In this document: positions 5,192-21,553 of the stretch, piece after piece | Layout: every line of letters begins with the position of its first letter | Numbering within the stretch: the stretch's first letter is position 1 | From: a virus | DNA length: 21,553 bases | IMG/VR virus record: IMGVR_UViG_3300027631_000153 | Span: 1 to 21,553 of that record | Reading direction: 5' to 3' (one strand) | The notes under the pieces: generated by a model | Databases searched by the model: none | What the model was told of the DNA's origin: nothing | Seen by the model: only the letters and a program-made list of their open reading frames with translations | Translations under genes and position numbers: made by a program

Positions 5192-6649
5192 TTATCCTAA
5201 CGCTATTGCATAGACGGTTGCTGCATTTGTAGCAACTTGTTCTATCGATTGAGCACTTACTGAATCACCTAATAGCTCTCGGACAATTATTTGAGCTCCA
5301 CTATTTAGTGTTGGGGAAGTAATTGTTAAAGTAGTTCCAGAAACAGTATAATCAGTAGTAGGTCTTATTACTACACCATTAACTACCACAAAAATAGTAT
5401 TAGCAGTTAGTCCAGCATTAATTGTAAAAGTATTTGTACTTCCATTTGCCGTAAAAGATTCTGTTACCATGCTGTAAGGAGTAGTACCTACTGGACCAGT
5501 TGGTCCTACAGCACCTTGTAATCCTGTTAGTCCTTGAAGACCTTGTGCACCTGTTGGTCCTTGTAATCCTATTGATCCTGTAGGGCCTACTATTGTTGAT
5601 GCTGCCCCTGTAGCACCTGTTGGTCCTTGAGCTCCTTGTATACCTTGGTCACCTATAGGACCTTGAGGTCCTGGGATTATTGATGCAGGACCTGCAGGGC
5701 CTGTAGGACCATCACCAACCATTTCTCTAACTACAATTTGACTACTAGTTGTAGGAGCTACTGTAAGTGCTAAATTAGTACCAAGAACTGAATAATCTGC
5801 ACCTGGTCTTAATATTGTATTATTAACAATTACTAATAAATTACTAACGCTAAGATTTGGGGATATAGGAAATGTAGTTGTAGTATCATTTCCTGTATAA
5901 GTTCTAGTAGTAATTATAAAGGGGAAACCGTTACCTATAGGTCCTTGTATACCTTGGTCACCTTTGAGACCCTGTGCACCTTGAATACCTTGTACACCTT
6001 GTGTACCAGTAGGTCCTTGAATACCTTGAGGACCTTGAACACCTTGAGGACCTTGAATACCTTGCGCGCCTTGAATGCCTGTTCTAGCAAACGTAATAAG
6101 AATATCTTCAGAGTTTATAAAAGGAGTATTACTGCTTCCACTAACAAAAGAACAACCTATATTAAAAAAGCCTTGTTCTTCGGAAATTGAAGTTATTGTA
6201 AATAATCCAAATACTGAAAGATTAGACTTCTTAGAGATTCTAAAGTGACCTTTTATAGAAGCAGAAGAATTATTAATGCCTCTTACGTATTCCTGAATAT
6301 CTGATGAAGTGTCATCCAAATCATCAATTCGCAGTATTGTTGCGAGATTGAGAGAAGCATTGTTGAATTTTAATTTTCCTGGTCCAGGATCACTATTTAC
6401 TACATTAGTATCAAAGGTATAATCAAATGACGCACCACCAAAGTTACCATCATTACCTTGTACACCTTGTGCTCCAGTGGGACCTGTAGGGCCTGAAGAA
6501 TAAGGTAAGGAGTTCCAAGCGGATACTCCGTTACCTATCTTAAACTTTTCTGTGTCTAATTCTACGCAAAGTTCACCTTCTACAAGAACAGGATTAATAC
6601 TAGCCCATTGTGCCGCGGTGCCGCGTCTTAGTTGAACGTGAATTGCCAT
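5192..6649 (-). CDS. Collagen-like phage tail fibre with Mtd-like N-terminus, 485 aa
   Basis: Residues 1-53 ([37 protein letters not shown]) match the N-terminal attachment domain seen in the Bordetella phage Mtd receptor-binding protein and many fibres. A short GPTG run leads to a globular domain at about 67-190 ([31 protein letters not shown]). Gly-X-Y collagen-like runs follow at 191-240 and 312-388. Two copies of a beta-sandwich-like module (244-312 and 391-462; [11 protein letters not shown] or [10 protein letters not shown], then [21 protein letters not shown]) are related to modules in the neighbouring 1488-residue fibre. The likely role is a trimeric side fibre whose collagen runs act as shaft and whose modules bind surface glycans. 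The start overlaps the upstream stop as TAATG and has GGAGGAG 7 bases before it. Confidence 0.93.
5486..6079 (-). repeat. Collagen-like Gly-X-Y coding repeats of the 485-aa fibre
   Basis: Two blocks of 9-base-periodic sequence encode GIQGPQG and GPTGAQG type triplets (residues 191-240 and 312-388), with one beta module between them. The periodicity also suppresses stop codons on the opposite strand, producing spurious open frames there. Confidence 0.85.
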
Positions 6650-9600
6650 TAAATTACTCCTCCCCCATCAATTAAGGGTAAACCACCATAAACAGAATCA
6701 GGGCGTCCGCCATCTAAATTGATTCCTTGAAGTGTGCTTGTTAGTGTTAAACTTTTTGGACTTATTGCATTATTAGTATTAATTATAATACCAGGTCCTG
6801 CAACAAATTGTAACGTTGATTGTCCTGTTGCTACTAAACTTGTTTGCCCATTAACTGCTAAAGTGCTGAATGCGTCGGATAGACCGCCACCACCGCCACC
6901 TGCTAGTGCGTTTAGCGTACCATCTTCAGTTATTGTTAAATTATTACCAACTTTAATACCACCTAAGGCAGTTGTAGTTGCTGGTGAAAGTGTTGTTGTG
7001 CCATTTTGACCTGCAGGTCCTTGAGCACCTGTAGGTCCTGTAACGCCTTGAGAACCTGTAGGTCCTGTAGTACCTGTTAAACCTGTAGCACCTGTAGGTC
7101 CAGTTAACCCTGTAGCACCTGTAGGTCCAGTTAAGCCTGTAGCACCTGTGGGACCTGTAGTACTTTCGCCACTGCCTCCTGTACCAGGAGGACCTTGCGG
7201 TCCTGTTGGGCCTTGTGGGCCTGCTACTGTTGAGTCTAAACCATTTGTACCTTGAGTACCTGTTGGTCCTGCAACGCCTTGGGCACCTGTAGGTCCTGTA
7301 GCACCTTGAGCACCTGTTGATCCTGTTGGTCCAGCTACTGTTGAAGCAGCACCTGTAGCACCTGTAGGTCCAGCTACTGTTGAATCAGCACCTGTAGGTC
7401 CTGTAGCACCTTGAGCACCTTGGATTCCTTGAGCACCTGTTGGTCCGTTTTTATTTAATACGTTAATGTAACCAATCATTCCACTGTGTATTACACACTG
7501 GTAAACTATTTGGTTTGGAGCATCATAAGGTACTCTATATATAACAGGTGTTCCTGTTGCATATTTTCCTGCAACTGGATCATTGTTTTCCATTCCAGGA
7601 ACTGCAGCAGTATTTCCACTTGCTAATCTAAAAGCTAGTGGGTGTGAGCTAGTTATATTTTGTAAATTAAAATATATTAATTCGCCTCGTACTACTGTAA
7701 TAGTAGGAAAATTACCTGTAAAATTATTTACAGTGTAATTAGATTCAATATTATTTAGTACGTATAACTGACCACCTTGAATACCTTGTGCACCTGTAGG
7801 GCCTGCAATACCTTGTGAACCAGTAGGACCTGCAACTGTTGAGTCAGCTCCTGTAGGGCCTTGAATACCTTGAGCACCTGTAGGACCTACAGTACCTTGA
7901 GTACCTGTGGGGCCTGCAATACCTTGTGAACCAGTAGGACCTGCAACTGTTGAGTCAGCTCCTGTAGGGCCTGCAATACCTTGTGAGCCAGTAGGTCCTG
8001 CAATACCTTGAGCACCTGTAGGACCTGCATTACCTTGTGTACCTTGTGTACCGGTAGGTCCTGCAATACCTTGATCGCCTTGAATACCTTGAATTCCTTG
8101 AGTACCTGTAGGACCTGCTAAGCCTTGTGAACCAGTAGGTCCTACTAAGCCTTGAATTCCTTGAGCACCTGTAGGTCCTGCATTACCTTGAGTACCTTGC
8201 GGACCCTGTAGCCCGCTAGCACCGCTAAGATCTGTTGTATAAGTGTATGCTGTGCCATTCCAAAGATACAGTTTTGAATCATCTGGATTCTCTACATTAC
8301 CTGTATCAATAATTGCAAATTGTCCTGCTACAATTCCTGTTGGTGCAGTATCAGCTGTTAAAGCAGCAACACTAATATAAATCTTTGCAATTGCAAAACC
8401 AAGACCTGTAGACCCTGTAGGACCTACATTACCTTGAATTCCTTGAATTCCTTGTGCACCTGTAGGACCTGCTACTGTTGATGCAGCTCCTGCTATACCC
8501 TGAATACCTTGAGGACCTTGAATACCTTGAGGACCTTGTTCACCATAACCAATACTTGTACCACCAACTGATAAAAATCCACCACTAACACTAATAGGTG
8601 TACCACCTAAATCTATGGTATTTGCTGTAAAATAACCTGTTCTCCAGCGTTTAGTCGGGGAACCTAGATCTTGTACACCATTCTGTGCAGGTATAATATG
8701 GCCAATAACGTTAGTTAAGTCAATTGAGGGGCCTGTAGGCCCTGTAGGACCGTCACCAATCATTTGTCTAACAACAATTTCTTCACCAGTAAAGGGTGCT
8801 GTTGTAAACGTTAATGTTGTTCCACTTAGTGTATAATCTGTTATTGGTTTTAATACTAAACCATTAGAGATAACTATTATACTGTCAACAGTATATCCGC
8901 TATCAATAGTAAAATTAGTAGTACTGTTATCTCCCGTATAAGTTTTAGTAGTAATTACAAAGGGGAATCCATTACCTGTAGGTCCTGTTACACCTTGAAT
9001 ACCTTGAAAACCTTGAATACCTTGAGCACCCGTAGGTCCTGCAATACCTTGTAAGCCTGTTGATCCTGCTACACCTTGAGTACCTTGAGTACCTGTAGGA
9101 CCTGCTACTGTTGATGCAGCTCCTGTAGGTCCTTGGGCACCTGTAGGTCCTGTAACGCCCTGGATACCTTGAGTACCTTGAGTACCTTGAATTCCTTGTG
9201 CACCTGTAGGACCTACAACACCTTGAATACCTTGATCACCTTGTGCACCTGTTGGACCTGTAACGCCTTGAGTACCTTGAATTCCTTGTGCACCTGTAGG
9301 ACCTGTAACACCTTGAATTCCTTGTATACCTGTAGGACCTACAACACCTTGAATACCTTGATCGCCTTGAGCACCTGTTGGACCTGCAACGCCTTGAATT
9401 CCTTGAATTCCTTGAATACCTTGAATACCTTGTGCACCTGTTGGACCTGTAACGCCTTGAATTCCTTGAATTCCTTGAGCACCTGTTGGGCCTGTTACTG
9501 TTGATGCAGCTCCTTGAATACCTTGTGCACCTGTAGGGCCTTGAGGACCTTGTAGTCCGCTAGCGCCGCTAAGGTCTGTTGTGTATGTATATGTTGTGCC

Positions 9601-11115
9601 GTTCCATAAATACAGTTTTGAATCATCTGGATTCTCTACGTTACCTGTATCAATAATTGCGAACTGACCTGCAACAATTCCGGTTGGTGCAGTATCTGCA
9701 GTTAATGCAGCAACTGTTGTATATATTTTTGCTATTGCAAACCCAAGGCCTGTAGAACCTGTAGGGCCTGTAGAACCTGTAGGGCCTGTGGGACCTGCTA
9801 CTGTTGAGGCAGCTCCTTGAATACCTTGAGCACCTGTTGGGCCTACACCTGTAGGTCCTTGAATACCTGTTGGACCTGTAGCCCCGTCCCCTCGCATCTG
9901 TCTAATAATAATTTCGGAATTATTAGCGGGGGCTGTAGTAAATGAAAGTGTAGTTCCGGAAAGTGTGTATTCTACAGTTGGGTCAAATAAAATACCATTT
10001 ACAGCAACAATAAGGTTATTAATAGTAAACCCGCTATCAATAGTATAAGCGGTTGTAGTACCATTACCAATAAATCTTTTAACACCTATGGAAAAAGGAA
10101 ATCCTGTTCCTTCTGAACCTGTAGGACCTTGAGCACCTGTTGGGCCAATTACTGTTGAATCAGCTCCTGTTGGTCCTACAATTCCTTGAGCACCTGTCGG
10201 GCCTACAATACCTTGAATACCTTGAATTCCTGTCGGGCCTACAATACCTTGAATTCCTTGAGCACCTGTTGGGCCTGTAGCGCCTTGAATTCCTTGAATT
10301 CCTTGAATTCCTTGAATTCCTTGAGCACCTGTTGGGCCTACAATACCTTGAGTTCCTTGATCGCCTTGAGCACCTGTTGGGCCTGTAACGCCTTGAATTC
10401 CTTGAATTCCTTGAGCACCTTGAGCACCTGTTGGGCCTGTAACGCCTTGAATTCCTTGAGCACCTGTTGGGCCTGTAACGCCTTGAATTCCTTGAGCACC
10501 TGTTGGGCCTGTAATACCTTGAGCACCTGTAGGACCAATTACTGTTGAGTCAGCACCTTGAATACCTTGAATACCTTGAGCACCTGTTGGACCTGTAGGT
10601 CCTACAACAGTAGATGCAGCACCTGTAGGGCCTACTTCTCCATATCCAGATATTTCTCTAATTACTACTTGCAGTCCTGCTGGAGGAGCAGTATTAAATA
10701 TTACATTACTATTTAATACTGCGTAATCAGTAGTAGATTGGGCAATTCCGCCCATAAAAACTAAAACATTGCTAAAACCTAGACCACTGCTAATTGCAAA
10801 AGTAACGTTTGATCCGTCTGCTGTATACTGTCTTGTAGTTGCGCTAAAAGGAATATTTCCGCTATTATTACTATTAATCCATTCGGTACCAGTATACTGT
10901 AGTGATTGTCCTACTACTGGATTTACAATGTTTACGTCTAATAAATCATCAAGTCTAAGTATGTCTTTAAAGTACTTTATTTGGTTGCTTGATGATTTAA
11001 AATAGATTTTGCCATCTGCGTAATTAACGGCTAACTCGCCATAGTCGAGATCTGTGGTTAAGGGCACTTTCCCTGTTACCGCAGATTTCTTAAGAATAAT
11101 CTTATTATTTGCCAT
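6649..11115 (-). CDS. Giant collagen-like tail fibre with cupredoxin-like domain, 1488 aa
   Basis: N-terminal virion-attachment domain 1-60 ([36 protein letters not shown]). About half of the protein is Gly-X-Y collagen-like spacer (main blocks 161-338, 412-457, 518-715, 859-903, 966-1114, 1223-1371). Between these sit globular modules: three copies of the TFxIxSG / VNG / DYTLSGTTL / RQM-GDG unit (89-157, 339-411, 717-789), two near-identical 64-residue units beginning [10 protein letters not shown] (457-520, 904-967), a spacer unit at 797-858 ([22 protein letters not shown]), and a cupredoxin-like domain (1115-1222). The C-terminus has [15 protein letters not shown] and ends [22 protein letters not shown]. 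It should form a long trimeric flexible side fibre. The ATG follows AGGG at a usual distance. The next gene starts inside its stop (TAATG). Confidence 0.93.
6657..6663 (-). promoter_or_regulatory. Strong ribosome binding site GGAGGAG inside the upstream gene's last codons
   Basis: GGAGGAG lies 7 bases before the ATG at 6649 and is made from the codons for the C-terminal Gly-Gly-Val of the 1488-residue fibre (its LIDGGGVI end). It fixes the start of the 485-residue fibre at the TAATG overlap. Confidence 0.85.
7003..7449 (-). repeat. Collagen-like coding block, C-terminal shaft
   Basis: Encodes residues 1223-1371 of the 1488-residue fibre as nearly uninterrupted Gly-X-Y triplets, including a GATGLTGPT unit repeated three times and a GSGES break near residue 1315. 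This block joins the cupredoxin-like domain to the C-terminal head. Confidence 0.85.
7450..7773 (-). other. Cupredoxin-like (type-1 copper) domain within the 1488-aa fibre
   Basis: Residues 1115-1222 break the collagen repeat with a globular domain whose pattern is that of plastocyanin-like cupredoxins: a strand [14 protein letters not shown], then SSHPLAF with His1158, a loop with two Gly-Asn-rich turns, [18 protein letters not shown], and a final strand IGYINVL. The C-terminal Cys1207-x2-His1210-x2-Met1213 spacing, together with His1158, gives the full set of ligands for a type-1 copper site. It is flanked on both sides by GPTGAQG spacer, so it is an inserted bead on the fibre. Copper binding is inference from the ligand pattern. 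Confidence 0.75.
7774..8220 (-). repeat. Collagen-like coding block before the cupredoxin-like domain
   Basis: Encodes residues 966-1114 of the 1488-residue fibre as GPTGxQG and [11 protein letters not shown] units. It contains the exact 63-base direct repeat listed separately. Confidence 0.85.
7799..7972 (-). repeat. Exact 63-base direct repeat, two copies 111 bases apart
   Basis: Positions 7799-7861 and 7910-7972 are identical base for base by direct reading. The offset of 111 bases is 37 codons, so the duplication keeps the reading frame and the collagen register. Elsewhere in the gene similar peptide units differ at synonymous positions, so this pair looks like a recent duplication or gene conversion. 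Confidence 0.9.
8971..9564 (-). repeat. Longest collagen-like coding block of the 1488-aa fibre
   Basis: Encodes residues 518-715, with repeated [13 protein letters not shown] units interrupted only by AASTV pentapeptides. Strong 9-base periodicity, for example runs of the plus-strand unit CTTGAATTC. Confidence 0.85.
10102..10635 (-). repeat. N-terminal collagen-like coding block with 36-base tandem units
   Basis: Encodes residues 161-338. Around 10423-10515 a 36-base unit encoding [12 protein letters not shown] is tandemly repeated without change, and at 10283-10322 the 9-base unit for G-I-Q is repeated four times. This sequence is prone to slippage or unequal recombination. Confidence 0.85.
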
Positions 11116-11135: not shown

Positions 11136-11157
11136 GGGGAACTTATAGAAGTTCCCC
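11136..11157 (-). terminator. Perfect 9-bp hairpin between two fibre genes; possible weak terminator
   Basis: In the 46-base gap between the stop at 11162 and the start at 11115 the minus-strand RNA folds as GGGGAACTT-CTAT-AAGTTCCCC, a perfect 9-bp stem with a 4-base loop. A run of five T follows, but six bases after the stem (CATCC then TTTTT), so it is a poor intrinsic terminator. It may reduce read-through, stabilise the upstream mRNA end or be an RNA-processing site. This is the only gap in the downstream unit longer than about 12 bases. Confidence 0.6.
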
Positions 11158-11161
11158 TTAA

Positions 11162-13132
11162 TTAAAAGTCACCGCCATCAATTGCTGTTAAAGTTACTGC
11201 ACCTGAAGTAATGGTAAACTGAGTAGAATCAAAACTTGCTAGACCTTTTACGCTAGTAGTTGCAAAGGGGATTGCTGTGCTGCCAGCAGCGGTTATTAAA
11301 CCCTTAGCATTTACAGTAAAGTTAGGAACTGTTGTACCGTTTCCGTAACTTCCAACATTACTATTAACAGTTGCTAATGTAAGTGCTCCTGAAACATTTG
11401 CTGAACCATCTACACTAGAGATAGTGGCTGATGCATCACCAGTTAAACTTAAATTACGAGCAGTAGCCCAGGTCGTAGCTGTTGTAGCATTACCAACTAA
11501 AGCACCGTAAACATTGGCAACTGTAAGATCTTTGTTTAAGTTCCAACGATTGTCAATAGCTGAGTATGTTAAGCTTGCTGCTGAAAATCCGTCTAAAGTA
11601 GTACCTACTGTTAATCCGCCACCATCGCTTAGAATTGCTGTGTTTGCAGCTGGTGCCAGTTGTAAGTTTTTGTCAGCAATCGTAACTGTTGTAGAACTTA
11701 CAGTAGTCATTGTACCGTTTACTGTTAAGTTTCCGGTAACGATTGCGTTACCATTAACAGCAATGTCATTAACTGTTGTATTACCAGCATTAAGAGTAGT
11801 GGTAATTGTAAGTGCATTAGCAGATAAAGCACCAGTTAATGTAAGTGCGCTAAGTTGTGCAGCACCGTCCATTTCAATTAGTACAGAATTTGTAGTATTA
11901 TCAAAAGTAGTCTTTAAACCTGACCCTGTAGTAAAGTTTAACGTGTCAGTTAATAAACTTAAACTACCTGCGGCTCCTGCTGATCCCGCAACATTTAATG
12001 TTGTAGCAATGTTAGCTGTGCTTACTGCAGTTACTAAACCTTTTTCATTAACTGTAACTATTGGAATTGCTGTTGCAGAACCAAAACTACCTAAGTTACT
12101 ATTAACAGTTGCTAATGTAAGTGCCGCTGAAACATTTGCTGCTCCATTAACATTTGAAAGAGTAGCCGTACCGTCACCAGTTAAGCTAAGGTTACGAGAG
12201 TTTAACCAACTGGTTGCAGTATCTGCATTACCAGTTAGATTACCTGTTACGTTACCAGTAATATTGCCTGTTACGTTACCTGCAAAACCACCTGTAGAAG
12301 TCAATATTCCGCTGGCAAAAGTTAATCCAGTATTATCTACTAACTTACCGGCAGTACCAGCAAATGTAACACGACCTGCTGTTAAAGAACTTGCAGTAAC
12401 ATCTACAGCAGATATGCCCGCTGTTAAATTGATAATTCCGGTGCTTAGTGTATTTGTAGTAGCATTGTAACTTAAATCACCATCGTCAATTAACTTACCA
12501 GCAGCATCAGAGAATACAATACGATCAGCTGTTAAAGAACTTGCAGTAACATCTGTTGCTAAAACGTCCCCAGTTAAATTACCAGTTACATTACCAGTTA
12601 CATTACCAGTTACATTTCCTGTAACGTTACCAACAAATCCTGTAGTAGCAGTAATTGTAGTACCAGTAACTGTAGAAGCTGCTGTAGCGCCAATAGCTGT
12701 ACCGTTAATGCTACCACCAGTAATCGTTGCATTAGTAAATGAGCTTGCTCCAGTACTTGTTATATTTCCTGTAACATTACCGGTTACATTACCAGTTACG
12801 TTACCAGTTACGTTACCAGTTACATCTCCGCTAATACCACCAGTAACACTACCAGTAACATTACCGATAATATTTAAAGTTGCGGTGTTTGCTCCGTCTC
12901 GTTTTACTAAAGTATTGTTTGTGCCAGCACTAGTTGCTGCATCAACCATATCAGTATAACGCTTACCACCAATAATGATATGGTTTACAGCATTTAAGTT
13001 GGTTTCAGTACCCATACCAATGTATAAGCGATCACCACCATTACCTGTAAAAGCTGAGTAGGCTAGTTCGCCTTGTGCAAGTTGCGGGGGGTTACCTGTC
13101 TGTTCACTACGTTTAATTCTTAAGATAGACAT
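11162..13132 (-). CDS. GNVTG-repeat phage tail fibre, 656 aa
   Basis: N-terminal attachment domain 1-62 (IKRSEQTGNPPQLAQGELAY, GGDRLYIGMG, IIIGGKRYTDM). The shaft contains GNVTG pentad-like repeats at 90-124, 168-189 and 285-302, a feature of aquatic T4-like phage fibres and probably a beta-solenoid. Two internal duplications are visible: DVTASSLTA-x-R-V/I-x-F with AGKL-V/I-D (194-230 and 244-279), and a unit of about 67 residues containing RNLSLTGD, LTLATVNSN and VN-x-KGL-V/I-TA (303-370 and 548-616). The head ends AIDGGDF. It lies 12 bases after the previous gene; TAAAGGA overlaps that gene's stop and acts as ribosome binding site. Probably a side tail fibre; receptor unknown. Confidence 0.92.
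   Translation of the reverse strand: MSILRIKRSEQTGNPPQLAQGELAYSAFTGNGGDRLYIGMGTETNLNAVNHIIIGGKRYTDMVDAATSAGTNNTLVKRDGANTATLNIIGNVTGSVTGGISGDVTGNVTGNVTGNVTGNVTGNITSTGASSFTNATITGGSINGTAIGATAASTVTGTTITATTGFVGNVTGNVTGNVTGNVTGNLTGDVLATDVTASSLTADRIVFSDAAGKLIDDGDLSYNATTNTLSTGIINLTAGISAVDVTASSLTAGRVTFAGTAGKLVDNTGLTFASGILTSTGGFAGNVTGNITGNVTGNLTGNADTATSWLNSRNLSLTGDGTATLSNVNGAANVSAALTLATVNSNLGSFGSATAIPIVTVNEKGLVTAVSTANIATTLNVAGSAGAAGSLSLLTDTLNFTTGSGLKTTFDNTTNSVLIEMDGAAQLSALTLTGALSANALTITTTLNAGNTTVNDIAVNGNAIVTGNLTVNGTMTTVSSTTVTIADKNLQLAPAANTAILSDGGGLTVGTTLDGFSAASLTYSAIDNRWNLNKDLTVANVYGALVGNATTATTWATARNLSLTGDASATISSVDGSANVSGALTLATVNSNVGSYGNGTTVPNFTVNAKGLITAAGSTAIPFATTSVKGLASFDSTQFTITSGAVTLTAIDGGDF
12227..12865 (-). 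repeat. Three clusters of 12-base GNVT-coding repeats
   Basis: Clusters at about 12227-12280, 12566-12631 and 12761-12865 encode runs of Gly-Asn-Val-Thr. The plus-strand unit is CCAGTTACGTTA with synonymous variants, so selection appears to act on the peptide and not the DNA. They form the shaft of the 656-residue fibre. Confidence 0.85.
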
Positions 13133-13144
13133 AATTATGTTCCT

Positions 13145-13408
13145 TTAAAACTGACCTGAGTCAACTACTTGCTGATTAAGCTCAGTTGTTGCTGTCCATT
13201 TTTCTGTTCCGGCATTATAAACTAATAAGCTTCCGCCAGTTAAATTGGTAATATCTAGATCCGATAAACCTTTTAGAGTAGTAACGTGGGGGCCAATCAT
13301 ACCTCCTACTACTATTTTTGTTTGTGATTGCGAAGAAACAACTGCTGGATCTTTGCGCTCAATTACAACCGTATTATTAACTTCGGTTACGATTATTTCT
13401 GTTGTCAT
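13145..13408 (-). CDS. Small fibre-adaptor-like protein, 87 aa
   Basis: The C-terminal half (LKGLSDLDITN, GGSLLVYNAGTEKWTATTELN) is a pattern seen in many phage fibre and adhesin proteins, usually just before a variable head or at a C-terminus. It ends VVDSGQF, resembling the AIDGGDF end of the next fibre. The N-terminal half (EIIVTEVNNTVVIERKDPAVV) is probably a pair of beta strands. No cysteines, signal or membrane segment. Its ATG overlaps the stop of the upstream BppU-like gene (ATGA), indicating translational coupling. Likely a short connector or chaperone-like subunit of the side-fibre assembly; this is inference. Confidence 0.85.
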   Translation of the reverse strand: MTTEIIVTEVNNTVVIERKDPAVVSSQSQTKIVVGGMIGPHVTTLKGLSDLDITNLTGGSLLVYNAGTEKWTATTELNQQVVDSGQF

Positions 13409-14001
13409 CGTGTGACTTCCTTGGTTAAGCTAACGCTGCCACTTAGAAAAGGGTAGACAGTTCCTTGATTATCTGTTAATTCCATGGAGTATACTGCTGA
13501 ATCAAAAACAAAAGTACCTGTAAGTGCTGCTGACATTTTTATTTGAATAGTAAAATTTACTGGATCAATTATAATCCTGCTATTAGCAGTAGACAGCTCG
13601 GCAATAACTGTTGTTGACTCTATAGTTTCTCGGATCTGCATTAGTGCAGTGTATCCAGTTAAGGGGATTGGGGTATTCCATGATACAATACCTCCACTAA
13701 CGTAGGCTCCGTATGCTGCCGAATTTACCTGGTTTAGGGTTAGTGTGTTAGAAGTTTTGCTAGTTACTAGATAGTATGCGTCATCTGCAATGGTATTAAT
13801 ATCTTTCATACCTGTAACACCAGTAACTCGTATTCGCCAATTTACAGGCACTGTATGAGTTGCGCCAGTAGTAATTACACAAGGAGCTGCTAGAGTAATA
13901 CCTGAAATAGGTGCGTATAGTTTTGTTTCTGACTCCCAGCGAAGAGTCTCTTCAAAAGTACTGCCTTGGTAAATTTTATAATTAATCTTTGCTGGTTCCA
14001 T
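13405..14001 (-). CDS. BppU-like baseplate/tail protein with inserted beta domain, 198 aa
   Basis: The frame of the protein matches the N-terminal domain of phage upper-baseplate proteins (BppU-like): YKIYQGSTFEETLRW at 8-22, LTGYTALMQIRE at 114-125, AELSTANSRIIIDP at 134-147, and YSMELTDNQGTVYPFLSGSV with TKEVTR at the C-terminus. Between the first and second motifs lies an extra stretch, about 36-108 (PCVITTGATHTVPVNWRIRV, TLTLNQVNSAAYGAYVSGG), resembling the small beta insertion (FCCH-type) that turns up in many aquatic phage structural proteins. Expected role: anchoring side fibres to the baseplate or tail tip. The start is 4 bases after the previous stop, with GTAAGG overlapping that stop. 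Confidence 0.85.
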   Translation of the reverse strand: MEPAKINYKIYQGSTFEETLRWESETKLYAPISGITLAAPCVITTGATHTVPVNWRIRVTGVTGMKDINTIADDAYYLVTSKTSNTLTLNQVNSAAYGAYVSGGIVSWNTPIPLTGYTALMQIRETIESTTVIAELSTANSRIIIDPVNFTIQIKMSAALTGTFVFDSAVYSMELTDNQGTVYPFLSGSVSLTKEVTR

Positions 14002-14005
14002 TACA

Positions 14006-14356
14006 TTACCTTACTTTCTTTGCTGCTGCAAGCGTAGCCGATATTCTAAACTTATTAACTTCTTCAGTTAGTGCAACAACTTCTGTTTGTAGCTGCTGAT
14101 TTTCAATGCACAACTGTGCTAGTTGTGCATTTAATATAATCATTTCTTGTTGCAAGCGGTTTAATTCGGTTGCTAGTAAGCCGTTTTGTTCACTCATACG
14201 CTCTAGCTCTGTATGCATTAAAGTAATTACGCTAGTTTCAGCATTAGTACTTTTCCAGTCTTTTAACAATTTCTGAATTCCAACTGAGAAAGCAACAACT
14301 GCTAACGCAACTAGTGAAACGGTCTGTATGAAACTGTGGTCGTTAATCTCCACCAT
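14006..14356 (-). CDS. Membrane-anchored coiled-coil protein, 116 aa, first gene of the second unit
   Basis: One N-terminal hydrophobic helix (about 11-28, TVSLVALAVVAFSVGIQ) is followed by a basic KLLKDWK stretch. A long heptad-patterned region (about 43-104) comes next, rich in Leu, Glu and Gln (ELERMSEQNGLLATELNRLQ, QLQTEVVALTEEV), and the end is basic (AAAKKVR). The layout resembles inner-membrane spanins (Rz-type) or small membrane-anchored accessory proteins, but there is no overlapping lipoprotein gene to act as an outer spanin, and the neighbours are virion genes. One cysteine (83). AAGGA lies 9 bases before the ATG. It is the first gene after the consensus promoter at 14480-14508. 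Function unassigned. Confidence 0.85.
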   Translation of the reverse strand: MVEINDHSFIQTVSLVALAVVAFSVGIQKLLKDWKSTNAETSVITLMHTELERMSEQNGLLATELNRLQQEMIILNAQLAQLCIENQQLQTEVVALTEEVNKFRISATLAAAKKVR

Positions 14357-14473
14357 AATCAGATTTCCTTATTAGCAGGGGTTGTATATTTAATTATAAT
14401 CCAAACGGCTGAGACGCCTTTTAGATCTAGGTAAAAGCTTGTCAAGAAAAAATATTGAAATGTTCTGACATTT
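14357..14473 (-). other. Untranslated leader of the second transcription unit
   Basis: About 117 bases lie between the expected transcription start and the ATG at 14356. The leader is AT-rich apart from a small imperfect hairpin near 14403-14422 (GGC-loop-GCC with A/T flanks). I see no riboswitch or attenuator with a T-run. A lone TTGACA at 14440-14445 has no -10 partner at the right distance. Confidence 0.5.
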
Positions 14474-14479
14474 TGGTAT

Positions 14480-14508
14480 ATTATACCACAAGGGCGCATA
14501 GTTGTCAA
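14480..14508 (-). promoter_or_regulatory. Perfect extended-(-10) sigma70 promoter
   Basis: Reading the minus strand, TTGACA (14508-14503) is followed by a 17-base spacer and TATAAT (14485-14480). The last spacer bases are TGG, giving the extended -10 motif TGnTATAAT. All core elements match the bacterial housekeeping sigma consensus. Transcription should begin near 14473 and read into the gene at 14006-14356 and the fibre genes beyond. It begins three bases after the T-run of the upstream terminator. Confidence 0.9.
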
Positions 14509-14511
14509 TGC

Positions 14512-14553
14512 AAAAAAATACCCTGCCCAAGTAATGGACAGGGTATAATTTTT
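14512..14553 (-). terminator. Intrinsic terminator of the tail-tip unit (bidirectional shape)
   Basis: The hairpin at 14518-14546 reads in minus-strand RNA as ATACCCTG, a T-G wobble pair, CCA, loop TTACT, TGG, then G and CAGGGTAT: a 12-pair stem with a 5-base loop. It is followed by an uninterrupted run of T (14518 down to 14512). The plus-strand side also ends in five T (14549-14553), so it could stop transcription from either direction. It lies 30 bases after the stop of the tail assembly chaperone gene. Confidence 0.92.
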
Positions 14554-14576
14554 ACAGTTTAAACTACTTAATATAA

Positions 14577-14993
14577 CTACGCAGGAGCAATGGGCCATGC
14601 TACACTATAAGGATAACCTGTTTGAGTTGGTATATCTCGTAATGCTTGGCGATATGTTTGCCATTGGTTATATACAGTATCGCCTAAACGATTTTTAGCA
14701 GATAATGTATCAGTCCAATCTGAGTTAATTAAAAATTGTCTGCGTTTATTTTTAACGTCTAGTTCTGCTAGTATTGTATTTAAAACCCACTGCTTTGTAG
14801 CATAATCAAATTCAGCGTAAACACTAGGCTTTTCTGAAATTTGTATTGGTTGATTATTTAAAATATAGTATAGTGTGTCGTCATAAGAGTTATCTATATA
14901 ACTTTCACCTTCTGAAAGTTGCAAATTAATTTCATCCGTATATACAGTTCTAGCAATTTGACCGGTAGCTTGTTTGTAGATTGTATAATTCAT
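14577..14993 (-). CDS. Phage tail assembly chaperone-like protein, 138 aa
   Basis: The C-terminal region (about 80-136) carries the pattern of the phage tail assembly chaperone family (Phage_tail_APC type): RRQFLINSDWT, then WQTYRQALRDIP, then GYP-x-x-V-x-WP-x-x-P. The N-terminal half (IYKQATGQIARTVY, EGESYIDNSYDD) is the usual variable domain placed before it in genes next to tail fibres. Such proteins help fold or attach the fibre encoded just upstream, here the 1626-residue central-fibre-like protein. Its ATG overlaps that gene's stop (ATGA) and no strong Shine-Dalgarno is visible, so translation is probably coupled. It is the last gene before the intrinsic terminator. Confidence 0.9.
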   Translation of the reverse strand: MNYTIYKQATGQIARTVYTDEINLQLSEGESYIDNSYDDTLYYILNNQPIQISEKPSVYAEFDYATKQWVLNTILAELDVKNKRRQFLINSDWTDTLSAKNRLGDTVYNQWQTYRQALRDIPTQTGYPYSVAWPIAPA

Positions 14994-17900
14994 CGTTTTA
15001 GTTCCATTATAAATAGAGATCTATTTGTTATAGAAGAGTTAATCTGTAAATTACCATAAAAACCTGTGTAATTATCTCTAATTTGTAACTCAACATTATA
15101 AGTACCTGCAGCAGGTGTAACACTATAAGCCATACTTCCTGTTCGTCCTTCAATTAGTACATAAGTGCCTACTGCAATTCTAACGTCTGGAAAGGATCCA
15201 CTAATACCACCTTCGTCTCCCCACACAGCTTGTGTTTCTGATCCGCCTGAAGTAATAAAAACAGTACCACCCGTACTAGTAAATGTAATACTTTGTACCG
15301 TTGTGTAGCTTACTGAATTTGTAGCGTATACCCTACCTGCAGTATATGCCGCAGCACTATTAGTTACCGAATTTGCAGCAATATTTGCAGTGCTAACAAC
15401 ATTGCCGTTTAGGGTCATCTGCGAACCATTAAATGCTATATTGGTAGTTTCATTTCCAAAAGCAAATAATCCAGTACCGTATAAAATACCACCACTACCA
15501 GTCATTGATGTGCCACTGATTGCAGCAGTACTGGCTTTTATATACTCAGTAACTGTTAAATTACCTGTATTAGTAGTAATTGCAGAAAGTGATCCAACCT
15601 TTAAACTTCCAATATAAGGAGTAGACCATACAGTTGTATTACTTCCGTTAAATATACCATCTGCTACGTAAAGAGAAGCATTACTGTTTGGGTCTGGATC
15701 TACAGCATACCACACTACGTTAAACGAACCTCCCCAAGTTGCTGCGGCTGCTGCACCTGAGGGTCTAGCTGCTACTGACGAAGATACACTTACATTTCCA
15801 GATACAGCAGCAGGATTGCCAGCAATACGCGCATACATAACAGTAGCTGATGCGCCAACAGTTCCTACGCCTGCTGCTCCTGTTGCTCCTGTTAGTCCTT
15901 GTGGTCCTGTTGCTCCGGTTGCTCCGGTTGCTCCGGTTGCTCCGGTTGCTCCAGGCGCTCCATTAGTGCCATTAGTACCTGCTGCCCCTGCTGTTCCTGC
16001 TGCTCCATTAGTACCATTAGTACCATTAGCGGCTGCATATCCCGATACTACTATACTAGATGTTCCCCAGTTTATAGTACTACTTGTAGCGGTCGCTGAG
16101 TCAACTACTGTTGCAATAGCACTATATAAATAAAATCCAGTTGAGGGTGCTACAGTAGTAGATTTACTCCATCCTGAAGGAGCTAAATAACTTCCGTCTG
16201 ACCAATTGTATGTGGTTGAACCAGTAATAGTTGGAGTTGATAACGCCCATTGATAAACTTCGGGTTTTGTTGTTTGTACGCCTACTACAGCATTGCCATT
16301 TTGTCCTGCAACATAGGTACTATATGAGGTAGACCAGTCTATTGTAGTTGTAATAGCTGTAGGTACATCAGTTACTTGTTTGCTTGCAACCCATAATTTA
16401 AGACCAGAAGTTCCTGGGTTTGTTGGAGGAGTATTTTGCCAACTATTTCCTCCGCCATACCCTGAAGTTATACCTGTTGACCATGTGTATGTAGCAGTAC
16501 CGCTTGGAGCTCCTATAATATTTGCTGCACTCCATTGATATAGATAAGCTGTAGCAATTTTATTGGGGGTAGTGCCTGCTGCTCCTGCTGCTCCTGCCGG
16601 ACCTGCTTTACTTTTAGATATACTATATATCTTATCTACAGTAAGTCCAATATAAGTAGCTCTTAATGTAGCTGTTCCACTATCAGTAGATAATGCACTA
16701 ACAGTATAAATGCCTGTTGATGCAATACTAATAGTTACTCCTGTTGAACTTACAACTGAATAAGTTACTGCAGCGTTACCAGTTTTATTTGTTGTACCGT
16801 CAAATACATAAAAAGTACCTCCTGTACCACTAAAACTTGAAACATTTCCAGAAGAGTCCGCTGCAACGGTACTGGCTTCATTAGACAGTATGGCACTAAT
16901 TGAGTTAACTCCGTTAATACCGCTAGTTCCAGGTTTAATCGCAATTAACGACATTATATCAGTTGCTACAATAGTTCCAGTATTTGCACCTTCTCTAATT
17001 TTTACAGTGAGTTGTTGTGGCATTGAGCTAAAAGAAGCTGTTGGTGTGTAAGTATATGTATTAGTAGTAGAATTCTGTACAGAACTAGTACCAATTAAAA
17101 ATTCATAGTATATTGTACCTGTAGTATTTTGAGCTGTAGCTGTAATTATTGCAGAAGTTGGTGATGGTGTTGTACCTGCGTCATTATATACAAAAGCTTG
17201 ACTAAATGTAGTTAAGTCAACTGATCTAGCATTAGTCCCGCTACTACCGTTAGTTCCGTTAGTTCCGTTAGTTCCGTTAGTTCCGTTAGTTCCGTTACTA
17301 CCATTTTTAGACTTGTTTAGTGTAAATACTTTATCTAAGTTAGTTGAACCTATAGTAGCTCTATAGGTTGCAGTTGCAGTATCTGCTGAGATAGCTGTAA
17401 TTGATATAATACCTGTAGTACTAACAATAGTACTGGTCATACCAGTTTCAGATACTTTAGACCACGTAACACCATCTGCGTTACTAAGGATAGTAGTGCC
17501 TCTTACAATTACTAATTGACTAGATAATGGAAATTGTCCTGGTATAACAGTACCTGTAGCATCACATGTAATAGTTTGATTTTCATTAATTAAACCTGCA
17601 ACTAAAGTGTCGTCGCCTTCTTTTAGAGCATAAACAGTAATTTGATCAAATACTGTTTTACTATTCCCAGTAGCCTCTACCTTTACTAATTTAGTTCCAG
17701 TTGTAAAACTAGATAATATAAATACAGCACTTGTTTGTCCTGTTTGAGTAGTAAAAGTTGTACCGTTATCAGTAGACACTTTCCAAGCATAACCAGGAGT
17801 AGAACCTAAGTTAAATGGTGTAGCTGTAAAAGTTATAGTAGAAGGAGATATTACCCCAGTATTTTTAGCTGCAGCAAATACTTGACCTGTAGCAGTTAAA

Positions 17901-19870
17901 ATAACATTTGAACCTGGATTACCGTCTACAGATTTATTTAAACTAAGAGTTTTTGTTAAGGTTACTCCGTTTACTGTCGCTGTAAAGACTGCTTCAGCAA
18001 AAGCATTACTTAAACTATTAATAGTAATTGTTCCTGTAGCATCAATATTAAATGATCCTGCGTCCCCACCAGTATAACTTACTTTTGCAAAAGTTGCTTG
18101 TGGATTAGTTGTATTGTCTAATAGTCTTGAGCCTAATGCTGCATATAATTTAGAAGTAAATGGGAATTGTCCAACTATTGGTGTTCCACTACTATCACAA
18201 CTAATTGTTTGGTTTTCATTAGATAGACCAACTGTAAAAGCATCGTCTCCTTCTTTGATGCTATAAATAGTAAAAGTATCAAAAGCACTATAAATACCTT
18301 CTGTAGCAGTAGCTGTAACGGTTTTTGTAGATCCTGCAGCAAAACTATTTAGTACAAAAGTGTTTCCACTAATTGTACCAGTAGCAACGTCTGGAACTAT
18401 ACCGTCCACTAGCCAGCTAAAAGTAGGGGTAACAAAATTACTTTGTGTAGCAGTAAATACTATTGTTGAAGGACTAATTGCGGTGCTATTTTTTGCAGTA
18501 ATAAACGCCTGTGCAGTTGCACTTAAGTCTACTGCTTTTGCTGTAGCACCTTCTACACCTTGTTTTGATTTTGCAAAACTTTGTGTAGTAATAATGTCTA
18601 CTGTTACACCTGTAGTAGTTATTACTCGTATAGTGTAATCAATGGTTGCAGCATCTGAAACCATTGCTGCATGAGTATCATAATAAACTAAATTTGAGCC
18701 AATTTGCGGAGTAGTATCTGCCGTAATACCTGTTGCATTTACAGAAACTACGCGCCAAGTACCGTTAGCAAAAGGACTAGTATTATCAACAGGTAAATAT
18801 ACTGAACCTTGTAGAATTTTAAGAATAGTTCCGCTACCAATGTAACTAGCAGTTACTGTTGAGCCGTTGGTATTAGCAGGTATATTATGTGACTCATTAC
18901 TAGAAACTACTGTAATTTGTTCAGTACCATCATTGGTTCTGAAAATACTCATTGTGTCAGTAGTTGTTCCTAGTGTCACTATAACTCTAGCGTTTCCTAT
19001 AGTTACGCCTTTTGCATCAAAATCTGCTGGTGTAATAGTAATAATATTATTAACTTGTGTAAAAGCAACTGCTCCTAGCGATACTCCTGCTCTTGTAAAC
19101 CCTGTTACTGTAAAAGTAGGCGTACCGGTAAGATTTGTTAAGTTAGCAGTAACAATTATAGATGAGCTTACTGAAGTAGTAGAATACTGATCTTTATACG
19201 CAAATTGATTGGCAGTGGCTGTTAAGGTAAGCATAGGCGCAGTTTGTCCTGCCTGTGCTTTATAGACATTCCAGACTTCTTCTAGAGTTATTCCACCATA
19301 AGTGGCTGTAAAAGTAACATTTCCTGAATTAGCTGTAAGACCAGTACAACTATATACGCCTGTAGTAGCATTAATAGTTGCTCCAGTAAGAGCAGTAATG
19401 CTACTTGCTTTAATAGCATAAACAGGGCCATTACCAGTTACGTCTTCAATACCGCTATATGCTTTAAAAACTCCTGTAGCTAGCGAAAAGTCGCCCCCAC
19501 TGCCGTCCATTGCTGTAGCAATAGGAGTAGGATCATTAGTTAAATAACCATAAACGGTCGTACTATCGCTAAGTACTACTTGAGTTAGCTCAGATGATAT
19601 TGTATATACGTCTGGATCAATAGCACTAATATAGGCGTACCTTACATAGTACCTGGCTCCTGGAGTTAGTCCAGTAATAGGTATAGATAGTCCGCTTCCA
19701 TTATATATTAGTGTACCTTGATTATTACTAGGATTAAACCCAGTTGTGCTAGAATACCATACTTTTACAGATATTAGGTCATCCCTAATATCTGTAGTTC
19801 TAACTATATCGTAAGGTGTATCTAATACTAGGTGTAATGATTTTACGCCTGAATATAAGTATGCCGCCAT
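14990..19870 (-). CDS. Central tail fibre-like protein with alternating Ig-like modules, 1626 aa
   Basis: Domains in order: fibronectin-III-like N-terminus (1-105). Next, nine alternating Ig-like modules at 106-1090 of two types: type B ends in a Lys-x-Lys/Gly hinge (KAQAG, KSKQG, NKSVDG, NKSKNG, SKSKAG) and type A ends KEGDD or similar. A GTN repeat sits at 857-876. Two Trp-rich repeats follow (about 1107-1190 and 1203-1280; YQW, TYTWS or TYNWS, DWSTS or NWGTS), then a collagen-like run (1281-1336), then a head at 1337-1626 (NTGNLTVTEYIKAS, GTSMTGSGGILYG, FAFGNETTNIAFNGS), which resembles the distal parts of J-type host-specificity proteins. Probably the central receptor-binding fibre. AAAGGA lies 5 bases before the ATG and overlaps the upstream stop. 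Confidence 0.9.
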   Translation of the reverse strand: MAAYLYSGVKSLHLVLDTPYDIVRTTDIRDDLISVKVWYSSTTGFNPSNNQGTLIYNGSGLSIPITGLTPGARYYVRYAYISAIDPDVYTISSELTQVVLSDSTTVYGYLTNDPTPIATAMDGSGGDFSLATGVFKAYSGIEDVTGNGPVYAIKASSITALTGATINATTGVYSCTGLTANSGNVTFTATYGGITLEEVWNVYKAQAGQTAPMLTLTATANQFAYKDQYSTTSVSSSIIVTANLTNLTGTPTFTVTGFTRAGVSLGAVAFTQVNNIITITPADFDAKGVTIGNARVIVTLGTTTDTMSIFRTNDGTEQITVVSSNESHNIPANTNGSTVTASYIGSGTILKILQGSVYLPVDNTSPFANGTWRVVSVNATGITADTTPQIGSNLVYYDTHAAMVSDAATIDYTIRVITTTGVTVDIITTQSFAKSKQGVEGATAKAVDLSATAQAFITAKNSTAISPSTIVFTATQSNFVTPTFSWLVDGIVPDVATGTISGNTFVLNSFAAGSTKTVTATATEGIYSAFDTFTIYSIKEGDDAFTVGLSNENQTISCDSSGTPIVGQFPFTSKLYAALGSRLLDNTTNPQATFAKVSYTGGDAGSFNIDATGTITINSLSNAFAEAVFTATVNGVTLTKTLSLNKSVDGNPGSNVILTATGQVFAAAKNTGVISPSTITFTATPFNLGSTPGYAWKVSTDNGTTFTTQTGQTSAVFILSSFTTGTKLVKVEATGNSKTVFDQITVYALKEGDDTLVAGLINENQTITCDATGTVIPGQFPLSSQLVIVRGTTILSNADGVTWSKVSETGMTSTIVSTTGIISITAISADTATATYRATIGSTNLDKVFTLNKSKNGSNGTNGTNGTNGTNGTNGSSGTNARSVDLTTFSQAFVYNDAGTTPSPTSAIITATAQNTTGTIYYEFLIGTSSVQNSTTNTYTYTPTASFSSMPQQLTVKIREGANTGTIVATDIMSLIAIKPGTSGINGVNSISAILSNEASTVAADSSGNVSSFSGTGGTFYVFDGTTNKTGNAAVTYSVVSSTGVTISIASTGIYTVSALSTDSGTATLRATYIGLTVDKIYSISKSKAGPAGAAGAAGTTPNKIATAYLYQWSAANIIGAPSGTATYTWSTGITSGYGGGNSWQNTPPTNPGTSGLKLWVASKQVTDVPTAITTTIDWSTSYSTYVAGQNGNAVVGVQTTKPEVYQWALSTPTITGSTTYNWSDGSYLAPSGWSKSTTVAPSTGFYLYSAIATVVDSATATSSTINWGTSSIVVSGYAAANGTNGTNGAAGTAGAAGTNGTNGAPGATGATGATGATGATGPQGLTGATGAAGVGTVGASATVMYARIAGNPAAVSGNVSVSSSVAARPSGAAAAATWGGSFNVVWYAVDPDPNSNASLYVADGIFNGSNTTVWSTPYIGSLKVGSLSAITTNTGNLTVTEYIKASTAAISGTSMTGSGGILYGTGLFAFGNETTNIAFNGSQMTLNGNVVSTANIAANSVTNSAAAYTAGRVYATNSVSYTTVQSITFTSTGGTVFITSGGSETQAVWGDEGGISGSFPDVRIAVGTYVLIEGRTGSMAYSVTPAAGTYNVELQIRDNYTGFYGNLQINSSITNRSLFIMELKR
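15863..16030 (-). repeat. Collagen-like run with a 9-base tandem repeat in the central fibre
   Basis: Encodes residues 1281-1336 (GTNGTNGAAG, then GATG repeats, then GPQGLTGATG). At about 15911-15954 the plus-strand unit GCTCCGGTT is repeated four times exactly, more GC-rich than its surroundings and likely to change copy number. Confidence 0.85.
17247..17300 (-). repeat. 9-base tandem repeat coding for GTN triplets
   Basis: The plus-strand unit CCGTTAGTT is repeated five times without change (17247-17291), followed by a partial copy. It encodes the Gly-Thr-Asn hinge between Ig-like modules B3 and A4. The identical codons suggest recent expansion by slippage. Confidence 0.9.
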
Positions 19871-19879
19871 GCTTGTCCT

Positions 19880-21553
19880 TTAAGTAATAGTTTTTACAAC
19901 TATTGTTCCGAGAGTGCTACTATTACTGTAGTTATTTGTTCTATCTACAGTTCTACATGCTACCCTATATGTAACTCCTGCTGCTGAAATTTTTGGTGCT
20001 GGTTGATCTCGTAAATCAAATCTTGCATCTCCGGTACTACGAATAATTTTAATATTATTTGTAGTTGTGTCCAATTCCCAAAAATCTGAGGAGCCTGTGT
20101 CTTTGTATAATCTATACTCGTAAGTTAAAAAATCATCTGCTTGTATAACTACAGCCGGTTTTGCCACAACAAAAGTGTGATCTAAATCCATGGTTAGCGA
20201 GGGTGCTACTGCTGAACTAGCGTTCTTACCATCATTAAGAAAAGTAAAAGTATCAGACCATGGGCCTGAAATACTGCCTGTAGCATCTAAATATCTGACT
20301 CTTACTTTATAAACTACATCAGATAATAACCCTGTAAAAGTATAGCCACTTGCTTCTTTATTAACAATGTGAATACTACTAGGACTACTATCACTAAATA
20401 ACATATCGCTTGATACAATATCAAACTGTACTTTAGTTGCTACAGCAGGTAAATTAGGAGGATTAGAAAATGAAGTAATAGCTACGTTTTGATAGTTTCC
20501 AGTAGATACTTGTTCTGATAATGCGGTAGTACTGTTTATACCGTTAATAATTGGTGCTACAGTTATTGAGTTTTTTACTAAATCTGTGTTAACACTAGAA
20601 ATATTAGCGTTAAATATTAACAATCCGCTTAAATCATCTGTATATATCTGTGGTGAATAATCTGCTAACGTTAATTTTGCACTATAATTTGTACTTGGTT
20701 CTACTGCTATAACAACACATTCTTGAGTTGTTTTGTTTATTTCACCTAACATAAACAAATTATCTACTTCTACAATATCACTGCCTGTAATTGCAGATGT
20801 TAATGTAATGCTGTCAGTATATCCATTATTTGTAATTGCAGCCAAAGTTTTTGTAACACTGCCTGCACCAGAACTATTTAAATTATTTGTTCTAATTAAT
20901 ATAGTATAAGTTTTACCAACTTCTAGAAACACTTGTTCTGTAAGAGTAATTAAAGTTCCTGTTATAGATTTAATTCTACCAGTACCTGTTCCCCATCTTG
21001 GAACATCATGTGTAACTTTTACCAAATCTCCGCGAGTACATACTAATTGTTCAAAATCAACAGTTAATGAATATGTTTCTGGACGTAATTTAATTTGTGC
21101 AAAGTGCCATCTAGCTAGTCGAGTTGCTTGATCTGCGTTTGTTACGCCAGGTAAAGTCAATTGTTCAAATAGTTCAGCAGCTTTTTTACCGCCAATAGCT
21201 GTTGCAGCATAACCATAATTATAAATAAGTAGTTCGTTAGGTTGATATGCTAATGACTCATCAGGAATAGTAACTCTAAATGCGTGCGGTAGTATAGGTA
21301 AATTTTTTGTTGATTCAAATCCCCAGCTATTATGCGGAGTAAAGTGTTGAGTAGTATAAGCTCTTGGCTTATCTATTACAACACCCCATTTGCCGTCTAC
21401 ATATGTAGGACTTGCTAATCCTGCTGCGCAAATGTCACGTAAAGTATCCATTACACTTTGTGTGCTAGTTAATATATTATTGTAAGTATATTTTGGACAG
21501 TATACTGCAGTACCTGTTCCACTACCTACTGCAGTTGCATAAAATCCTTCACC
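19880..21553 (-). CDS. Lambda-J-like tail tip (host specificity) protein, 5' part outside the window
   Basis: The frame stays open to the right edge: 34 codons (GEGFYATAVG to ILTSTQSV) precede the first in-window methionine at 21451, and they continue the family's sequence into MDTLRDICAAGLASPTYVDG. The true start is therefore outside the window. The visible 557 residues correspond to the middle and C-terminal tail-tip region of J/TipJ proteins: NADQATRLARWHFAQIKLRPETYSL, VCTRGDLVKVTHDVPRWGTG, and a fibronectin-III-like domain at about 330-405 of the in-window Met numbering (PPNLPAVA, YKVRVRYLDATGSISGPWSD). It ends shortly after this, without the long central fibre seen in lambda J; the next gene supplies one instead. 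Forms the tail tip and binds the tube and central fibre. Confidence 0.92.
   Translation of the reverse strand, partial: GEGFYATAVGSGTGTAVYCPKYTYNNILTSTQSVMDTLRDICAAGLASPTYVDGKWGVVIDKPRAYTTQHFTPHNSWGFESTKNLPILPHAFRVTIPDESLAYQPNELLIYNYGYAATAIGGKKAAELFEQLTLPGVTNADQATRLARWHFAQIKLRPETYSLTVDFEQLVCTRGDLVKVTHDVPRWGTGTGRIKSITGTLITLTEQVFLEVGKTYTILIRTNNLNSSGAGSVTKTLAAITNNGYTDSITLTSAITGSDIVEVDNLFMLGEINKTTQECVVIAVEPSTNYSAKLTLADYSPQIYTDDLSGLLIFNANISSVNTDLVKNSITVAPIINGINSTTALSEQVSTGNYQNVAITSFSNPPNLPAVATKVQFDIVSSDMLFSDSSPSSIHIVNKEASGYTFTGLLSDVVYKVRVRYLDATGSISGPWSDTFTFLNDGKNASSAVAPSLTMDLDHTFVVAKPAVVIQADDFLTYEYRLYKDTGSSDFWELDTTTNNIKIIRSTGDARFDLRDQPAPKISAAGVTYRVACRTVDRTNNYSNSSTLGTIVVKTIT

Follow-up and report, generated by a model that had tools for sequence, protein, structure and literature searches.

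A conserved fused terminator–promoter at a probable boundary between two late tail units in a group of environmental phages

Introduction

Among the described systems closest to the arrangement reported here, the late region of phage T1 has been described as a row of modules, each bounded by rho-independent terminators and equipped with RpoD promoters (PMC11447400). The view taken in a sequence-only reading of the DNA studied here, that phage late tail genes are usually read as one long transcript, meets with a published exception in T1 (PMC11447400). In TLS, a relative of T1, neither a phage RNA polymerase nor a sigma subunit was recognized, only 3 intergenic promoters were predicted, and the transcriptons could not be stated definitively (PMC11447400). 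Felix O1 likewise has no phage RNA polymerase and no apparent polymerase-modifying protein, and carries sigma70-like promoters and many rho-independent terminators; how transcription passes these terminators was left open (PMC3185647). Here, we describe a terminator fused to a full-consensus promoter in the tail region of an IMG/VR virus for which a search found no direct DNA relatives among named phages.

Results

A terminator and an exact promoter separated by 3 bases

In the window, by which we mean the whole stretch of 21,553 nucleotides that was analyzed, every tail gene of appreciable size is read from the minus strand. Rereading that strand bore out the element first described from the letters alone, a 12-pair hairpin with a T-run, 3 further bases, and a TTGACA-17 promoter. 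The element and the leader behind it comprise the following features:

14546–14518, minus strand: intrinsic terminator stem-loop of 12 bp with a loop of 5 and 6 G-C pairs; covariation in relatives
14517–14512, minus strand: T6 tail of the terminator, directly 3' of the stem
14480–14508, minus strand: extended −10 sigma70-type promoter, TTGACA-N17-TATAAT, its −10 preceded by TGG; exact consensus, kept in relatives
14508–14503, minus strand: −35 element, TTGACA
14487–14495, minus strand: spacer block GCCCTTGTG, delimited by per-position conservation in 33 divergent representatives; candidate regulator site
14485–14480, minus strand: −10 element, TATAAT, with TG one base before it
14357–14473, minus strand: predicted 5' leader, whose length hardly varies among most relatives of the p116 type
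14440–14445, minus strand: second TTGACA after a T-run, within the leader; kept in part of the relatives

The terminator has the 2 parts expected of an intrinsic terminator, a G-C-rich hairpin and a T-run immediately after it, and GCA are the only 3 bases between T6 and TTGACA on the minus strand. Folded as RNA, positions 14560–14508 reach −26.8 kcal/mol (z = −7.5; 0 shuffles were equally stable), and an Rfam search gave sub-threshold matches only, the majority of which end on the terminator hairpin. The promoter combines TTGACA, a 17-nt spacer and TGnTATAAT, as in sigma70 promoters of the extended −10 type, which places the predicted transcription start, ~7 nt beyond the −10, at ~14473. It is the sole exact sigma70 promoter in the 21,553-base record, for which base composition leads to an expectation of 0.011 exact promoters with a 17-nt spacer on both strands together. 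Since a scan of the window found no general excess of either promoter-like sites (44 observed versus 57 expected) or terminator-like sites (15 observed versus 12 expected), the element at 14480–14546 is distinctive by its quality and not by the number of such sites.

In the leader, no consensus RNA structure was found across relatives, and the fold of the window's own leader has a z of only −1.4. The T-run and TTGACA within the leader are exact, and at the same place, in about a quarter of the diverged relatives. A second promoter at this point was considered and rejected, as TTGACA is enriched there, yet no −10 follows it. An antisense promoter over the same −10 is not claimed either, with a mean of 8.7 of 12 matches that is only slightly better than the 8.0 of shuffled leaders.

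Conservation of the element among relatives

Relatives were first gathered by the p198 protein encoded downstream of the promoter, which yielded 67 viral loci in whose selection the promoter played no part; 63 of these had sufficient upstream DNA. Related phages indeed keep the terminator–promoter pair at this junction, a check that the sequence-only reading had proposed. The exact promoter is present in 58 of the 63 loci, usually with TTGACA-17-TATAAT lying 497–508 nt upstream of p198, and 4 more loci (L036, L051, L081 and L082) have TTGACT with all other bases intact (11 of 12) behind a terminator. The sole case with neither promoter nor terminator is L084, in which the p198 homologue is partial. 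The short spacing from T-run to TTGACA is also kept in the loci found by p198 alone. Scanning for the exact DNA pattern retrieved no fewer than 119 viral stretches. Nearly all of these lie at the corresponding junction, preceded by J and fibre genes and followed by p116 or p198; the loci with p116 or p198 downstream contain 89 distinct terminator–promoter sequences. Sets collected by pattern required an exact promoter, a bias that the set based on p198 alone avoids; moreover, the IMG/VR contigs are partly redundant, and the genomes of most relatives are incomplete. This conservation is strong proof that the observed element is real, which we regard as confirmed, and its persistence across diverged phages also supports the earlier proposal of a separate host-type (sigma70) promoter for the downstream unit with a terminator before it.

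Within 25 diverse sequences, 97.7% of the cells of the stem are paired, as against 34–51% in controls in which the partner strand was slid by 1–3 columns, and compensatory changes that alter both sides while keeping the pairing occur in 6 of 9 stem pairs. As judged from these alignments, such covariation is a sign that the hairpin itself is under selection, beyond merely copied DNA.

Exchangeable genes before the element and a stable unit behind it

The genes on the 2 sides of the junction are the following:

19880–21553, minus strand: J-like central tail fibre protein of the upstream unit, represented by its C-terminal part, with the frame still open where the window ends
14990–19870, minus strand: fibre-like protein of 1626 aa; upstream unit
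14577–14993, minus strand: p138, tail fibre assembly chaperone-like (PF16778); closes the upstream unit, and in most relatives unrelated genes take its place
14006–14356, minus strand: p116, with an apparent transmembrane segment and coiled coil on reading its sequence; opens the downstream unit in most relatives
13405–14001, minus strand: p198 (phrog_1084), whose homologue in Pseudomonas phage KPP25 is annotated as a structural protein
13145–13408, minus strand: p87; downstream unit
11162–13132, minus strand: p656, repeat-rich tail/decoration-like protein; downstream unit

Farther along the same strand lie 2 long collagen-like repeat proteins (6649–11115 and 5192–6649), and a 9-bp hairpin, GGGGAACTTCTATAAGTTCCCC, stands at 11157–11136, immediately before the larger of the 2 genes (6649–11115).

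Across the relatives, the last gene before the terminator belongs to at least 8 families that do not match one another, and the element stays in place. Behind the promoter, the first gene comes from 3 families only: p116 in 75 of 87 loci, p198 directly in 6, and another protein in the remaining 6; a few loci have an extra gene between the promoter and p116. Judged from these gene orders, the element stays fixed, with an exchangeable fibre region on one side of it and a conserved downstream unit on the other. We also observed that p116 is often 90–97% identical between phages whose p198 proteins are only ~55% identical.

Other exact promoters and gene content of the relatives

Exact promoters are not confined to this junction: 19 large relatives contain 59 in total (1–9 each), compared to 1 for a reversed control pattern. 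A second terminator–promoter pair recurs directly before the tape-measure gene, ~16–18 kb upstream (loci L201, L204, L206–L208, L211, L212, L215, L216, L218, L223, L227, L233 and L236), with an A/T tract between the T-run and the −35 that in many cases reads AAAAATTTTTT. Another recurrent exact promoter, this one without a terminator, precedes a gene that we assign as phoH-like. In L203, L210, L213, L214, L217, L219, L232 and L238, its −10 lies between the inverted arms GGTCTGC and GCAGACC (GTGGTCTGC/GCAGACCAC in L203). As one arm is upstream of the expected start, the arrangement resembles an operator in the DNA to which a dimeric regulator would bind. Since no terminator precedes the promoter of the phoH-like gene or several further exact promoters, the fusion does not hold throughout these genomes. 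A different phage group (L101, L102 and L115) has its own terminator–promoter fusion, CCCCCGAAAGGGGGTATTTTTTTGGC-TTGACA in L101 and L115, and further exact promoters in L102 and L115 have in common TTGACAATAATTGGATTCCTCTGTATAAT and the same downstream leader.

The relative G004 is 99,690 bp long and has a 105-bp repeat at both ends, which would fit a complete genome of circular or permuted form. Its Pfam matches include DnaB, primase, NAD-dependent ligase, 5'-3' exonuclease, dUTPase and Thy1, among other replication and nucleotide genes. In 10 relatives, neither a Pfam integrase nor sigma region 2 or 4 was matched, and the positive controls of these searches worked; a search with PF00940 for a T7-type polymerase also gave no match, but its own control failed to match as well. 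On this gene content, the phage group appears to be without sign of lysogeny. A prophage search for the host returned a single weak, partial match, in a Rhodanobacter genome.

A conserved block in the promoter spacer

The spacer between −35 and −10 is conserved unevenly. In the 33 representatives, whose leaders have diverged, GCCCTTRTG is kept, whereas the first half of the spacer is for the most part near random (0.02–0.7 bits), and several bases 3' of the −10 are kept as well (A, then an ACAAAAT-like stretch). Because the search itself partly demanded exact −35 and −10 elements of these representatives, the fair measure of exactness is the p198 set. Within GCCCTTRTG, TG is the extended −10, and GCCCTT lies outside the sigma70 consensus. 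GCCCTT is also missing from nearly all other exact promoters in the same genomes, the only other close version being GCCCTCGTGG, in the promoter before the tape-measure gene of G010. Because the motif is outside the consensus and nearly absent elsewhere, the site may be regulated. As to the control that the sequence-only reading gave as possibly early or constitutive, the conservation of the block would mildly favour regulation.

This leads to the strongest of the alternatives, a regulated late promoter at which GCCCTTRTG and the bases after the −10 bind an activator, a repressor or a promoter-loading Q-like antiterminator, with the terminator serving mainly to silence the unit until then. Lambda-type Q proteins have their binding sites in the promoter spacer, and this precedent, together with the uneven conservation of the spacer and the rarity of GCCCTT in other exact promoters, speaks for such a reading. 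However, a full-consensus promoter requires no activator, the leader shows no consensus RNA structure, and GCCCTTRTG may instead be a contact of the core promoter; we therefore consider this reading possible, but not probable. The more specific version, in which GCCCTTRTG marks the promoter for a particular phage or host regulator that switches on the distal tail unit independently of the other late units, we put forward as a conjecture that is somewhat unlikely to hold. If it were true, tail parts would be timed separately by means of full-consensus promoters of the host type.

It is improbable that the junction is mainly a short patch of shared DNA for recombination of tail-fibre modules, with transcription as a secondary matter. 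Nearly identical stretches of 60–90 nt do flank unrelated upstream genes, as such a patch would; however, the conserved positions are those of the terminator and the promoter, and homology alone does not require the compensation observed in the stem. Least probable is the moron-like or acquired, insulated cassette suggested by the sequence-only reading, which the unit's own promoter, the terminator upstream of it and the far stronger conservation of p116 than of its neighbours might have favoured, but which we regard as unsupported because the junction is the same in nearly all relatives instead of being an insertion between genes that are adjacent in them, because p116, p198, p87, p656 and further fibre genes are ordinary genes of the regular distal tail region, and because the tape-measure gene has the same kind of pair, which points to the organization of the late region rather than to an insertion.

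Discussion

We consider it likely that the element is the fixed boundary of 2 late transcription units, at which the terminator would release the polymerase and host sigma70 would restart transcription for the downstream tail unit. The position of the element, the covariation, the conservation, the exchange of neighbours, the tape-measure pair and the lack of integrase or sigma domains in 10 relatives can be read directly from the sequences. From these we infer actual termination and initiation, UP-like function, insulation and timing, as follows. Host sigma70 RNA polymerase would traverse the unit of J, fibre and chaperone genes and then be released at the intrinsic terminator. The perfect promoter fused to it would load fresh host polymerase for p116, p198 and the remaining downstream tail genes, so that the bacterial polymerase most likely produces a separate message for the last tail block. 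In this arrangement the terminator would shield the promoter from upstream traffic and separate the dose of the 2 units, and its T-run, which falls at about −44 to −39, may, going by known promoter anatomy, also act as an A/T tract resembling a proximal UP element. As one boundary would serve any gene that precedes it, the upstream gene could be exchanged with downstream expression untouched. The term host sigma70 is taken from the consensus, and late in infection some read-through of the terminator could arise from a phage antitermination factor that went unrecognized.

Under this two-unit reading, the locus is most like the "transcriptons" of Escherichia phage T1 (Drexlerviridae), in which the late structural region is cut by terminators and each module has a sigma70 promoter. 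At the level of sequence the relatives share this layout, with pairs before both the tape-measure gene and p116; the window contains the p116 pair only. Unlike in T1, terminator and promoter are here fused at a near-fixed distance of ~3 bases with the full consensus in nearly all relatives, and a conserved spacer block and a swappable upstream gene are added. Felix O1 differs in that its promoters are imperfect matches (PMC3185647). In Pseudomonas phage KPP25 (Kochitakasuvirus), which has one of the closest p198 homologues in named phages (34% identity), a large structural protein is likewise followed by a gap of ~560 bp and then by the p198 homologue; the same scan found no terminator and no good coding-strand promoter in this gap. 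Curvibacter phage P26059A has the closest named J protein (39% identity) and a similar order of tape measure, J and fibre, and its 84 kb contain no exact TTGACA-N16-18-TATAAT.

The locus thus offers a well-supported natural example of a fused, apparently insulated terminator–promoter part that is kept in many environmental phages as their fibre neighbours change. The example suggests that a single transcript for the late tail genes is not a necessity, and provides a precise boundary together with a candidate motif for regulation; such compact parts are also useful in the design of laboratory expression. The principle is already known from T1 and Felix O1; what differs here is the spacing, the near-invariant consensus, the spacer block and the exchange of genes around a fixed element.
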